A program made the translations under genes and the position numbers. This document shows, in pieces, positions 2 to 42,037 of a DNA stretch of 64,000 nt; within the stretch, counting starts at the first letter, position 1, and each line of letters begins with the position of its first letter. Below the pieces are notes generated by a model, which had not been told where the DNA came from, did no database searches, and worked only from the letters and a program-made list of their open reading frames with translations. The DNA lies in the NCBI RefSeq assembly GCF_018399035.1, contig NZ_CP073760.1:1736001-1800000 (forward strand), written 5' to 3'. The stretch comes from Thiocapsa sp. GTDB taxonomy: Bacteria; Pseudomonadota; Gammaproteobacteria; Chromatiales; Chromatiaceae.

Positions 2-86
2 TAAACCGCGCCGGCTCCAACAGTCGTCGGAGCCGGCGCGGCCAAGCCATCCAACAAATTACGCATACCGCACCGGGCGCGGTTTA
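2..86. repeat. 85-bp TAAACCGCG module (subtype B), with a partial inverted copy behind it
   Basis: This 85-bp unit starts TAAACCGCGCCGGCTCC and ends ACCGGGCGCGGTTTA, so its outer 9 bp are inverted repeats. The interior holds CCATCCAA and CGCATACCGC, both shared with the units at 25842 and 41953. A partial inverted copy runs from 83 to about 125 (TAAACCGC, then GCGGTATGCG and TGTTGG), sharing the central TTTA. No protein is implied. Confidence 0.9.
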
Positions 87-125
87 AACCGCTCTGGAGC
101 GGTATGCGCAGATGTTGGCTCCTGA

Positions 126-644
126 TTAGCAGGGAGATTCAGCGACGCCCCGAATCCACGATTCAGAGCGGAAGGCATGAAGTCAAGGCGTTGGGCCGCC
201 CCTTCAGGGCTTCAGATGGATGGGGATCGTGATCCCGGGGCGTTGCCCCGGGCTCGCGTGGTGAGCCCCGTTGGGGCAGCAGAACCCGCTGGCTTCGATT
301 CATGGCCATGGCAGGCTCAGTCGGATGGTGGATCAGGGCGCAGTCTGCGCCGATCGGTGGCTCATTCCGTGAGCCTGGCGGAAGATTCTTTTGGACTCAC
401 TCGGAGCTCAGCGTCTCGCTCTGAACACGGTTCCATAGAATGCCGGGTTAAATCTTGACGCACTGAAGAACGCAAAACGTCGTGGACATCCAAAGATGCC
501 GCGACGGCTGCAGGCAAAATTCAGAAGAGAACCGACGAAGAACGCCGCCCCGAGGGCGGCGTTCTTCGTGACTAACCCGGTGCGACGCAACAGCGCCCCG
601 GACAGGCGTCAGGCAAGACCCGCGCGCGAGGCGCGGGGCGCGCT
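126..644. other. Intergenic region without a convincing gene
   Basis: About 520 bases lie between the first repeat unit and the end of dsrE2. The only notable structure is the hairpin at 536-568, annotated separately. Short open frames here (for example 177-458) are Arg/Ser/Gly-rich, match no family and have no good ribosome binding site, so they were not called. Confidence 0.6.
536..568 (-). terminator. Hairpin terminator candidate downstream of dsrE2
   Basis: The two arms (CGAAGAACGCCGCC and GGCGGCGTTCTTCG) form a perfect 14-bp stem with a loop of about five bases. It lies about 75 bases past the dsrE2 stop on the minus strand. A run with several T residues follows on that strand, but not a clean U-tract. 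It plausibly ends the rhd-tusA-dsrE2 transcript. Confidence 0.6.
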
Positions 645-1124
645 TTAGATATAGAGACAGATGTCGCTTTGTCCCGCAAACTCAAAGAAGGCTGCCGCAC
701 CCGCATACTCCACACCGTCGATGAACTCGGCCGGGTTCATATCGAACAGGTCGACCGTCATCTGGCAGGCGATCAGCTTGACCTCGGCCTCTTGGCAAAG
801 ATCCCGCAGCTCTTCGACGCTGGCCACACCCTTGTCCTTCATCTTCTTCTTCATCATCGCGGTCATCATGCCCTGCATGCCGGGCAAGGTCAGACCCAGG
901 ACCGGGAACCACTTGTCCATGCCCATCGGCATGGGCATTCCGGGGTTGCCCAGCGGGGTCACCTCGAGAGCGAGCTTCTTCTTCAGGAGCTGGAGCCCGT
1001 AGAAGGTAAAGAAGATCTGTGTCTCGTAGCCGAGCGCGGATGCGGTCGAGGCCAGGATAAAGGGTGGGTAGGCCCAATCCAGAGAGCCTTTAGTGGCGAT
1101 AATGGCGAGTTTCTTTTCTTCCAT
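645..1124 (-). CDS. dsrE2: DsrE2-type sulfur-trafficking protein (DsrE/DsrF/DrsH-like)
   Basis: This 159-residue protein has a DsrE-like fold: an N-terminal strand (KLAIIATKGSLDW), a long helix starting AYPPFILASTASALGY, and a Met-rich central segment typical of the DsrE2 branch. The conserved cysteine region is LIACQMTVDLFDM near residue 120. In Allochromatium vinosum the homologue is encoded with a rhodanese and TusA in the same order, and the trio moves sulfane sulfur through the cytoplasm toward Dsr/sHdr-type oxidation. A strong GAGGAGG ribosome site precedes the ATG. The gene is the third of the minus-strand trio, 64 bases after tusA. Its biochemical role is inferred from that precedent. 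A membrane association is possible but not certain. Confidence 0.9.
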   Translation of the reverse strand: MEEKKLAIIATKGSLDWAYPPFILASTASALGYETQIFFTFYGLQLLKKKLALEVTPLGNPGMPMPMGMDKWFPVLGLTLPGMQGMMTAMMKKKMKDKGVASVEELRDLCQEAEVKLIACQMTVDLFDMNPAEFIDGVEYAGAAAFFEFAGQSDICLYI

Positions 1125-1188
1125 CGTGTCCTCCTCGCGGGTCGATTGGCTCGCGGGTTGTTTCGGTTTGGCGAGACGGCTCGGGCCG

Positions 1189-1419
1189 TCAGCCCTTCTT
1201 GATCAGAAAGTGAAATTTGCCGCCGTCTTCCTTCGACTCCATCAGCTCGTTGCCGGTCTGCTTGGCGAAGGCATCGAAATCCTTGACCGAGCCTGGATCG
1301 GTGGCGACAACGTGCAGCACTTGGCCGGAATCCATCGCGTTCAGCGTCTTCTTCGCACGTAAAATCGGGAGCGGGCAATTCAGGCCGCTGGCGTCGAGCT
1401 CTTGGTCAAAATCTGCCAT
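1189..1419 (-). CDS. tusA: Sulfur carrier protein TusA
   Basis: This 76-residue protein is full length for the TusA/SirA family. The signature GLNCPLPILRAKK (CPxP motif) puts the sulfur-carrying cysteine at residue 15, and the C-terminal strand FHFLIKKG is typical. It accepts a persulfide from a rhodanese or cysteine desulfurase and passes it on. In sulfur oxidizers it is a central cytoplasmic sulfur donor rather than only a tRNA-thiolation factor. GGAGGT sits just upstream of the ATG. It lies between the rhodanese and dsrE2 genes on the same strand, consistent with a transfer relay Rhd - TusA - DsrE2. Confidence 0.95.
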   Translation of the reverse strand: MADFDQELDASGLNCPLPILRAKKTLNAMDSGQVLHVVATDPGSVKDFDAFAKQTGNELMESKEDGGKFHFLIKKG

Positions 1420-1585
1420 GGAGTACCTCCGGTCGGGTGCTGTTTTAGAATATCAGTAGACACAAGAATTCGGTTTTATAGGCGAAACAGGCCGAAAAGG
1501 CAAGGCGCCGAGAGCGGCCTCGAGAAGCCGCGCTCGGGCGGTCGCGCGACCGCCGCGATGGCGGCGATGTCTGCGTCTCGACGAC

Positions 1586-40633: not shown

Positions 40634-40686
40634 TAAACCGCGTCTCACCGAGATCGAGGACATCTCCAAAGCCAAATGCAAATGCT
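40634..40686. repeat. Left half of a TAAACCGCG module (subtype C)
   Basis: TAAACCGCGTCTCACCGAGA and the following bases match the left half of the unit at 27257. The right half is absent. It interrupts the histidine kinase remnant and is followed by the CGACTGCAAGTCG repeat. Confidence 0.85.
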
Positions 40687-40708
40687 TTTCGGGAGCCCGT
40701 CGTCCACC

Positions 40709-40770
40709 GCCGGCAATCGTCGCGAAGCGGCGACACCCCGGGATCGACGACTTGCAGTCGTCCTCTTCAA
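40709..40770 (-). repeat. CGACTGCAAGTCG repeat, copy 2 (inverted)
   Basis: On the minus strand it reads GACGACTGCAAGTCGTCGAT, then CCCGGGGTGTCGCCGCTTCG, matching 4417-4476. It overlaps or directly abuts the stop codon of the McdB-like gene. Confidence 0.75.
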
Positions 40771-41066
40771 TCCGGCCAAACCCTCCGCCGAATCTGATAA
40801 CCCTCCACCGATGAGCCAGCGGCAGTCCCGGAAGCCGGACGTTTCCGCGCAACGGGCCGCGCGGCGGCGCCCGCCCCGGTCGACTTCGCACGCTGCGCCG
40901 GGGCCGCTGCCGTCGCACCCGCCGACGCTTTTGCGCCTGCCGGCTCGGCATCACCGGGCTGATCCGCCCCGCTCTTGGCCTTGCGAATGGAGGCAACTAA
41001 TCGGCGTTCCGTCTGCGTGCTGTTAGACGTGCTCTTGGGAGACGTGCTCCTGGGAGGCGTTGTCAT
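40767..41066 (-). CDS. Small McdB-like partner protein
   Basis: This 99-residue protein has a basic N-terminus (TERRLVASIRKAKSG), a low-complexity Ala/Gly/Pro middle predicted to be disordered, and ends VEGYQIRRRVWPD. A disordered body with a near-terminal tryptophan resembles proteobacterial McdB, the adaptor that links carboxysomes to the McdA ATPase. It overlaps the end of the ParA-like gene by 44 bases on the same strand, as expected for a partner. No carboxysome gene is in the window, so another cargo is possible. The identity is an inference from layout and C-terminus. Confidence 0.6.
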   Translation of the reverse strand: MTTPPRSTSPKSTSNSTQTERRLVASIRKAKSGADQPGDAEPAGAKASAGATAAAPAQRAKSTGAGAAARPVARKRPASGTAAGSSVEGYQIRRRVWPD

Positions 41067-41691
41067 GGTCGAAGATCTCCGCGATCAGGTCGTTGATCTC
41101 GGCCGCCGCGGCAGCACCGCGACGGCCGGCTTGGAAGACGCTGCGCCCCTCGAGCACACAGAGACGATGGATGGAGCGGCGCTGCAACGCGGTTCGGGCG
41201 ACCGGCAGATCCAACTCCGCGACGGCCTCGGGCATCAGGCGCGAGAGGGTCGTGCGCGGCTCCATCTGGCTCATCACGATCAAGGCGCGCAGTTGCGGGT
41301 TCTCGGGGCGAATCGCCTCGATGATGCGGGCGAGATGACTCGTCGCCCAGAGATCCATCGGCGAGGGTTGGAGCGGGATCAGCGCATGGTCGGCCAGGCG
41401 CAGTGCGTGCTCGGTCTGCGGTGACTTGATGGACGGGGGGCAATCGATGACGACATGGTCGTGGACGTCGCGCAGGGCCTGCACCGTCTTTACGAGCCCG
41501 AAGGCCGCGGCCACCACGGCGGGCAACGCGGCATTTTCATCCCCGATCAGGCGCCATTGATAGGCGGACTGCTGCGGATCGGCATCGACGATGACGACCG
41601 ATCCCCGCCGCGCCAGACCGGCGGCGAGATTCAAGGACAAGGTGGTCTTGCCGGTGCCGCCTTTGTTGCCGACGACGGCGACGATGCTCAT
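41023..41691 (-). CDS. ParA/MinD-family ATPase, McdA-like
   Basis: This 222-residue ATPase has a deviant Walker A (VVGNKGGTGKTTLSLNLAAG, signature Lys10), Walker A' (VIVDADPQQSAYQWR) and Walker B-type HVVIDCPPS. It has no N-terminal HTH, so it is not a plasmid-type ParA repressor. Such small ATPases bind the nucleoid and position cargo. The overlap with a small disordered partner suggests an McdAB-type pair. ATG at 41691 is the natural start. The C-terminus carries a short duplication (SQEHVSQEHV). Confidence 0.85.
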   Translation of the reverse strand: MSIVAVVGNKGGTGKTTLSLNLAAGLARRGSVVIVDADPQQSAYQWRLIGDENAALPAVVAAAFGLVKTVQALRDVHDHVVIDCPPSIKSPQTEHALRLADHALIPLQPSPMDLWATSHLARIIEAIRPENPQLRALIVMSQMEPRTTLSRLMPEAVAELDLPVARTALQRRSIHRLCVLEGRSVFQAGRRGAAAAAEINDLIAEIFDHDNASQEHVSQEHV

Positions 41692-41844
41692 CGGCCGGCC
41701 TCGTGTCGGAGGTGGTGCGGCGCGCAGTGGGCAATCGACACGGGTTTCGTCAAGGTCTCGACCTCGGCCATCGGCGGACATTGGAGCTGAGTCAAGGCTA
41801 GGCGCTGTGATCGAGCCGCGTCAAGCGTGGAGACTGGTTTAACC

Positions 41845-42037
41845 TAAACCGCGTCCAGAGCGAGATGCTCACTTTGGAGTGAGTTCGAAGTTTGGTGAAT
41901 CCACGACCCTTAGCGGGGGACGCGGTTTAAAATTTTATATTTTTAAATACTTTAAACCGCGCCGGCTCCAGCGGTTCTGAAATCCGCCGGGGCCGATCCC
42001 ATCCAAAAACATCGCATACCGCACCGGGCGCGGTTTA
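41845..42037. repeat. Composite repeat: module A, AT linker, module B (second copy)
   Basis: Module A (41845-41929), AT-rich linker (41930-41952) and module B (41953-42037) nearly match 25734-25926 base for base, in the same orientation. The few differences include ACTTTGGAG for ACTTTCGAG. Both 85-bp modules are complete. Confidence 0.95.

Follow-up and report, generated by a model that had tools for sequence, protein, structure and literature searches.

A dispersed family of 85-bp palindromic units in Thiocapsa with slowly changing arms, variable interiors and a head-to-head pair as common module

We describe a family of short palindromic units scattered through a 64-kb window (the whole stretch of 64,000 nucleotides analysed here, positions 1,736,001 to 1,800,000 of the forward strand of contig NZ_CP073760.1) of the genome of Thiocapsa sp., a member of the Chromatiaceae. 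Each unit opens with TAAACCGCG(T/C)C, runs through about 63 variable bases and closes with the reverse complement of its start. An initial annotation of this DNA had counted at least 13 complete units; the family is real, and the count comes to 12 complete units of 82-86 bp and two halves, at 11640 and 40634. The complete units start at window positions 2, 3423, 3593, 4586, 13670, 25734, 25842, 27148, 27257, 36212, 41845 and 41953, and measure, in that order, 85, 85, 85, 85, 82, 85, 85, 86, 84, 83, 85 and 85 bp. With at most one mismatch, TAAACCGCG occurs 39 times in the window (mean 10.2 and largest value 20 in 100 shuffles), and 9 of the 12 units carry it exactly at both ends. Units 3423 (TAAACTGCG) and 4586 (TAGACCGCG) are each altered in matching fashion on both sides, as had been claimed, and unit 27148 is altered at one end, on a single side only. 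Rfam models produced no match in the window at gathering score.

The first unit (2..86, plus strand, 85 bp) is of a B2-like subtype. At 3423..3507 on the minus strand lies a unit with a singleton interior and the matched variant ends TAAACTGCG/CGCAGTTTA, which is found at the same place in six congeners. It is separated by a spacer (3508..3592) from the plus-strand unit at 3593..3677, whose right end is the TAA stop of a called minus-strand gene (3675-4265). The unit at 4586..4670 (plus strand; ends TAGACCGCG/CGCGGTCTA) stops 2 bp ahead of a called start codon at 4673, and the 82-bp unit at 13670..13751 (plus strand) gives the stop codon of a gene ending at 13672. Three head-to-head pairs follow, each consisting of a minus-strand left member, a 23-bp AT-rich linker and a plus-strand right member: 25734..25818 (subtype A), 25819..25841 and 25842..25926 (subtype B); 27148..27233 (subtype B2, 86 bp, the unit with one end changed), 27234..27256 and 27257..27340 (subtype C, 84 bp); and 41845..41929 (subtype A), 41930..41952 and 41953..42037 (subtype B). 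An orphan outer-end fragment (25718..25735, minus strand) is fused to the first of these. The 83-bp singleton at 36212..36294 (minus strand) gives the stop codon of a gene ending at 36214; its arms are identical in the related genome G185, and its interior differs there by 21%. The half units are a subtype A outer end at 11640..11686 (minus strand), truncated near the start of another dispersed repeat, and a subtype C inner end at 40634..40680 (plus strand), both with an approximate inner limit. Here and below, G000 is the own genome, other G numbers are related genomes, and labels such as L076 and L078 denote sampled DNA stretches.

Searching the own genome (5.73 Mb, one contig) for exact units, with 55-75 bases between nine-base ends, yielded 471 copies, and the same pattern read backwards yielded none. 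Lengths and positions were read in 464 kb of this genome, made up of the window and 20 stretches chosen for listed units, in which density is not representative. Within this sample the length distribution peaks at 85 bp (50 of 75 exact units), with 69 of 75 at 84-86 bp, and in a somewhat broader set of 99 units 95 fall outside genes called by a simple script. Of 194 genomes of the family, 28 carry at least one exact unit, and the richest has 582. Eight of the 11 Thiocapsa-genus genomes, the own included, hold 120-582 exact units (G000, G185, G102, G139, G023, G071, G153 and G175) and three hold none (G123, G189 and G165). In a class sample of 369 genomes, 365 of them outside the family, a 22-base pattern matched the own genome only (431 copies). 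The named records among the matches listed belong to Thiocapsa, Thiobaca trueperi, Thiocystis, Lamprocystis purpurea and a Chromatiaceae metagenome-assembled genome. The copies are not restricted to the window, and their spacing is far from what chance gives; the constant length stated in the initial annotation holds, and its suggestion of an old family, whose units contain no gene of their own, is supported. A literature search, with most subscription papers outside its reach, found no description of this repeat family. Integron attC sites were rejected as an explanation because the units are dispersed.

The units have a direction. Iterative orientation finds a common right part, roughly GCATNNCGCNCNGGNCGCGGTTTA, across subtypes whose interiors are otherwise unlike. 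Once oriented, 24 of the 25 non-overlapping neighbours within 40 bp of each other in the own genome (99 units) stand head-to-head, in minus-plus order, with spacers of 21-23 bp. The same arrangement is found in 30 of 30 neighbours in congener stretches (137 units, partly the same places in several species; spacers 21-28 bp) and in 22 of 22 in named Thiocapsa, Thiobaca, Thiocystis and Lamprocystis records (53 of 80 listed loci; spacers 17-23 bp). Over all sets the linkers span 17-28 bp, mostly 22-23, and their positions are 67-97% A+T, most of them about 90%. The minus-plus order and the AT-rich linker mean that the common module is two units joined head-to-head, an architecture present in four genera. 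Close pairs hold 48 of the 99 sampled units, and 56 when spacers of up to 300 bp are allowed.

Several places show mixed states. The spacer between units 3423 and 3593 is 85 bp in the own genome and 23 bp, with about 70% A+T, in G102, and these two look like an old pair. Position 13670 carries one unit in the own genome and a head-to-head pair in G185. At L076:18584, a pair is present in G139 and G153, the left member only in G023, the right member only in the own genome, G185 and G071, and a different unit in G102 and G175. Judging from these mixed states, we infer that single units are largely survivors of pairs. Linkers may also be landing places for other repeats. The spacer of another old pair (817/1102), L076:902-1101, contains CTACCCATCCTACGTG, which is like the repeat at window 11689-11852, and some congeners have a short spacer there. 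That repeat has dozens of matches listed, most at 85-97% identity, and window positions 183-391, 4322-4493, 7575-7704 and 7754-7926 hold further dispersed repeats that recur elsewhere in this genome and in its relatives.

Comparison of occupied and empty sites indicates what was inserted. The pair at L076:5128-5319 is present in the own genome and absent at the same place in eight relatives, five of which have a gap of 2-3 bp and three a stretch of 24, 25 or 197 bp with no unit. The pair at L078:4855-5047 is absent in G102, where the gap is 4 bp, and five other relatives have gaps of 40-306 bp. What these two sites show is a head-to-head pair of about 192 bp, not the 85-bp unit that the initial annotation took to be the moving module. 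Nor are the units pieces of unrelated longer repeats; many are instead halves of one defined pair, which that reading had missed along with the direction of the units and their order around a 21-23 bp linker. Of 28 pairs, 27 lie in a YTAR outer context and have TA at each end, a combination that suggests, from sequence context, insertion at TA with duplication of the target.

The arms and the interiors change in quite different ways. In a scan at spacings of 83-87, in which each arm could carry up to two mismatches of TAAACCGCG and complementarity was not required, we found 72 exact units. A single arm was altered in 12 further units, and in another 12 the two arms carried the same change, where other spacings predict 0.06; in 8 the arms had changed in different ways (about 4.6 expected). 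The proposed covariation at the ends is borne out by the excess of identical changes. Among 31 dissimilar units, changes occur on both sides at 7 of the 11 stem pairs, a value reached in none of 500 shuffles; these units were chosen with matched arms, so that the two-arm scan is the fair test. Their mean column identity is 61% with the arms included, which leaves a weak common consensus in the interior. When units were located by their interior, and the arm placed at its best offset within 4 bases, arms differed at 0.013 and interiors at 0.078 mismatches per site in the own genome (n = 72; 5 dropped, with an end missing), and at 0.035 and 0.185 in congeners (n = 72; 1 dropped), units with more than 4 mismatches in an arm being left out. 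Slow, coordinated change of the arms thus accompanies fast change of the interiors at nearly fixed length.

The same contrast can be followed at fixed places, where the units of three stretches were compared with the corresponding positions of up to seven congeners, requiring an interior identity of at least 0.5 and leaving the arms free, with no demand that they be recognisable. Over 90 comparisons of 21 units, arms differ at a rate of 0.087 and interiors at 0.240. The arm rate is below half the interior rate at 11 of the 21 units and at least 3 times lower at 10, as in L078:8057 (0.006 versus 0.190), L076:16412 (0.008 versus 0.282) and window unit 3423 (0.030 versus 0.272). In 11 sets with at least 6 genomes, stem identity is 95% and interior identity 67-73%, and the left flank at 13-30 bp is 45% identical ungapped; these values leave out set L076:16521 and four rows of different units (G102 and G175 at L076:18584, G185 at L076:12439 and G023 at L078:2022). 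In place, the arms have thus diverged by about 5% and the interiors by about 30%. The sets come from a finder that needs recognisable arms, and decayed orthologs such as G139 at L076:817 and G153 at 4586 are missing from them. Arms pair, with G-U included, in 773 of 792 cells, and unit lengths are within one base of those in the own genome, one dropped row excepted; the decayed G139 copy at L076:817 requires more gaps. Paired changes have occurred in place at window unit 3593 in G071 (TGAACC/GGTTCA on both sides), L076:817 (G153), L076:12439 (G139) and L076:18584 (G139). Selection on terminal pairing, as first proposed, is supported in the form of constraint at these fixed places, with arms at least two times slower at 11 of the 21 units and the contrast missing at the other 10.

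Fixed copies of this kind bear on whether the family is an ordinary TA-type miniature inverted-repeat transposable element (MITE) of the ERIC/Correia/RUP class, free of constraint after insertion, with arm conservation reflecting recent spread. The TA ends, the YTAR context, the location of 95 of 99 units outside called genes and the hundreds of copies are all as such an element would have them, and the low arm rate of young subtypes is explicable by serial transposition. The ERIC, Correia and RUP families keep a recognisable interior. However, the fixed copies in up to eight Thiocapsa genomes keep their arms and nearly their length while interiors drift, and we consider this explanation unlikely.

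Matched changes might also arise with no function at all. Template-switch correction between the arms of a quasi-palindrome is a mutational process that keeps the arms alike, and it explains identical changes on both sides, including the transversions seen here (TAAAGCGCG, TAAGGCGCG, TAAACCGCT). Such correction makes arms like each other but does not hold them near a consensus, as the difference of about 5% in arms and 30% in interiors in place would require. It is further weakened by two congeners without exact units. G123 and G189 yield 10 and 29 covariance-model matches, numbers that count a few places on both strands, and in none of the 20 near-full-length relics read from these two genomes do all 11 arm pairs match (mean 8.45 of 11). 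(Covariance-model counts were taken up to 150 per genome and are at least-values, not totals, in the copy-rich genomes; G165 has 2 weak matches.) With such unmatched arms, correction would not be constitutive, and as a general account of the family template switching is highly unlikely.

In G123, units that could be assigned to subtypes are about equally mutated in arms (0.136) and interiors (0.158), a comparison of two distinct units, one of them counted twice. On these few data, the relics suggest that arm upkeep depends on something lost in G123 and G189. Stretches L254 and L259 of G123 retain a B2-C pair with its AT-rich linker and mutated arms, although the family is otherwise nearly absent from that genome.

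We considered which enzyme could have moved the pair. The initial annotation had suggested looking for a RAYT (REP-associated tyrosine transposase) or DDE transposase with the same ends. None of 13 IS630-type (DDE_3) loci and none of 15 IS4/IS5-type loci has the arms as its ends. Likewise, in 30 Y1/RAYT loci of 100 matches in 11 genomes (3 of 19 in the own genome), no gene has arms as ends or directly adjoins a unit. One DDE_3 locus (L118) has a unit pair some 1 kb away that does not flank it, and at the IS4/IS5-type loci L229 and L239 units are nearby on one side only, the one at L239 sitting at another gene's stop codon. None of the orphan outer ends in the sampled DNA pairs arms with a transposase gene. 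In five genomes (L129, L133, L135, L145 and L147), the 3' end of a gene that lies divergent to a Y1-type gene adjoins an 84-bp unit bounded by TGAACCGCG. The own genome also contains eight DDE_3 frames, 180-190 aa long and almost alike in score, and three equally scoring Y1 genes, which probably reflect recent insertion-sequence activity.

The closest known relatives in form are the REPINs, doublets of repetitive extragenic palindromic (REP) sequences. These have inverted conserved ends, a variable interior whose length and hairpin capacity are important, compensatory changes and many intergenic copies (PMC3116915). The earlier claim that no REP-like class fits the units is not supported in that form: in REPINs, too, the ends are fixed, the interior has a set length and changes at the ends compensate each other (PMC3116915), and the units have both the interior of fixed length and the compensatory end changes. 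A classical REPIN moved by a genome-encoded RAYT would fit these traits, and Y1 genes occur in all 11 genus genomes. Yet the aligned arms, TAAACCGCGYC, contain neither an internal hairpin nor a GTAG-type tag, and TA at the ends lies within a YTAR context. In the 30 loci no Y1 gene directly adjoins a unit, and the number of Y1 genes does not track that of units (14 Y1 matches but no exact unit in G123). We therefore regard a classical REPIN as quite unlikely. The units also differ from the REPINs of Pseudomonas fluorescens, E. coli and others in their 11-bp ends, their head-to-head joining with an AT-rich linker, their TA/YTAR context and the lack of a RAYT neighbour among the loci examined.

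Other small repeats share different subsets of these features. ERIC/IRU, Correia/NEMIS and RUP elements are described as short inserts that are not autonomous, end in TA, duplicate their target and form long stem-loops (PMC2229807, PMC10969869), and RUP has been proposed to be moved by IS630-Spn1 (PMC2229807). Like ERIC, Correia and RUP, the pairs carry TA at both termini (27 of 28 in YTAR). In contrast to them, interiors diverge widely at nearly constant length, the module consists of two separately palindromic units, and, unlike the case proposed for RUP, none of the 13 IS630-type loci has unit ends. Among the CGTC- and GTAG-tagged REPs, head-to-head dimers predominate and singles can be dimer remnants, the CGTC class being without a linked transposase (PMC3733652). 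The units share with CGTC REPs the head-to-head dimers and, among the loci examined, the absence of a linked transposase. REP sequences have stems of 5-13 bp and loops of 2-20 bp, whereas the units have an 11-bp stem around about 63 bp, and CGTC occurs in the arm only within CGCGTC. The units match neither REPINs nor ERIC/Correia-type elements fully, and in the descriptions compared here their combination of features is absent from REPINs, ERIC/Correia/RUP and CGTC REPs.

A different possibility is that the units act in RNA, as has been proposed for REP, ERIC and NEMIS: a domesticated hairpin whose 11-bp stem at gene ends serves as a 3' stabiliser, processing site or transcription barrier, with which mobility is compatible. 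The genomic context has the corresponding trend. Units per kb of spacer are most frequent between convergent genes and least frequent between divergent ones, with convergent, tandem and divergent values of 1.82, 1.41 and 0.42 in the own genome and 2.81, 1.52 and 0.20 in congeners. The right end coincides with the stop codon in 21 of 52 cases in which it faces a gene 3' end, and the left end in 4 of 56. The pairing of arms in 773 of 792 in-place cells, G-U included, would also suit a transcribed stem. But scarcity in divergent spacers follows equally from harm to promoters, and the stop-codon fit of right ends can stem from YTAR targets. The end variants TAA, TGA and TAG were possibly chosen as stop codons; transitions alone yield the same set. 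Start codons are abutted as well: L078:8277-8361 ends at the first base of a called start codon in all eight genomes aligned, and this unit and window unit 4586-4670 leave no room for a ribosome-binding site outside the unit.

Although single units such as window 2-86 are strongly structured, the interior folding energies of 33 units equal those of shuffles on average (mean z -0.26 and -0.16). In the in-place sets, G-U events (12) are no more frequent than A-C events (11) when counted on the strand that runs on from the adjoining gene; this count covers 11 sets and 836 cells and keeps the four rows of different units. A looser set leans to RNA, with G-U and A-C counts of 31 and 19 in 3' contexts and 18 and 16 in 5' contexts, but it is noisy (134 matches, 31 of them inside called genes, against 23 in a reversed control). 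A promoter and terminator scan of the 25-42 kb region found nothing at the units, the terminator part being limited to loops of 3-8. The interior energies and wobble counts do not favour the RNA-level form of the length- or structure-dependent role raised by the initial annotation, and we find the domesticated hairpin doubtful. On balance, a DNA-level rule fits better. The arm centres are 74 bp apart, which by arithmetic is about 7 helical turns at 10.5 bp per turn.

The best reading of these observations is a composite, REPIN-like miniature element with TA-type insertion. We think it probable, if well short of certain, that many units are halves of an approximately 192-bp composite inserted between genes in YTAR/TA context and moved by a putative transposase that reads the 11-bp arms; many of the paired units likely spread as one mobile element. 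Each half would work like a REPIN: its arms would have to match at a fixed separation so that one enzyme or protein complex could act on the unit as double-stranded or hairpin DNA, and the interior would be a spacer whose length alone counts. Singles would mostly be pairs with one half lost or mutated. Subtypes A, B, B2 and C could arise as interiors drift through serial transposition while the arms are tested again at each move. Least certain are the last steps, in which old fixed copies would be held to the same rule by host use or arm-to-arm repair while the factor is active, and in which the arms would decay once it is lost, as may have happened in G123 and G189.

Several observations weigh against the composite element moved by an arm-reading transposase. 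No IS630, IS4/IS5 or Y1/RAYT gene bearing the arms was present among the loci examined. Transposition alone does not explain arm upkeep in copies that no longer move, for which host use, arm-to-arm repair or slow turnover are possible. The two-fold contrast between arms and interiors is missing at 10 of the 21 fixed places; in six of these the unit is missing from most relatives, which leaves a chance alignment, and four (L076:16521, L076:18584, L078:450 and 13670) have a ratio of 0.5-0.7. In the interior-located test, the best-offset placing and the dropped units (5 and 1) favour the arms, and the G123 rates come from the two units noted above. Pair insertions were set against empty sites in two cases, the second less clean, and most relatives have no TA at the empty site, the duplication being read from context. 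Finally, the outer context of singles is YTAR in 41 of 53 (looser set), lower than in pairs.

An extension of the composite-element reading would bring the family together as one dispersed system: a double REPIN-like element, TA-inserted as a pair, whose landed copies, whether pairs or singles, are kept as two-arm sites at fixed helical spacing by a lineage-specific trans-acting factor. This is a tentative proposal that we hold as possible but rather less than probable. If true, the family would represent a new class of bacterial mobile DNA, hundreds of vertically inherited sites with free interiors would act together, and every arm would start to decay once the factor is gone. At the level of the family, the head-to-head pair is an inserted module with TA ends that stands outside the RAYT/REP setting among the loci examined. 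Because a genome may hold several hundred copies, congeners supply orthologs in place and at least two of them have copies that decayed, the roles of host use, transposase and mutation bias in palindrome upkeep become testable by comparison alone, and the units would be a good test case for what keeps short palindromic repeats intact.

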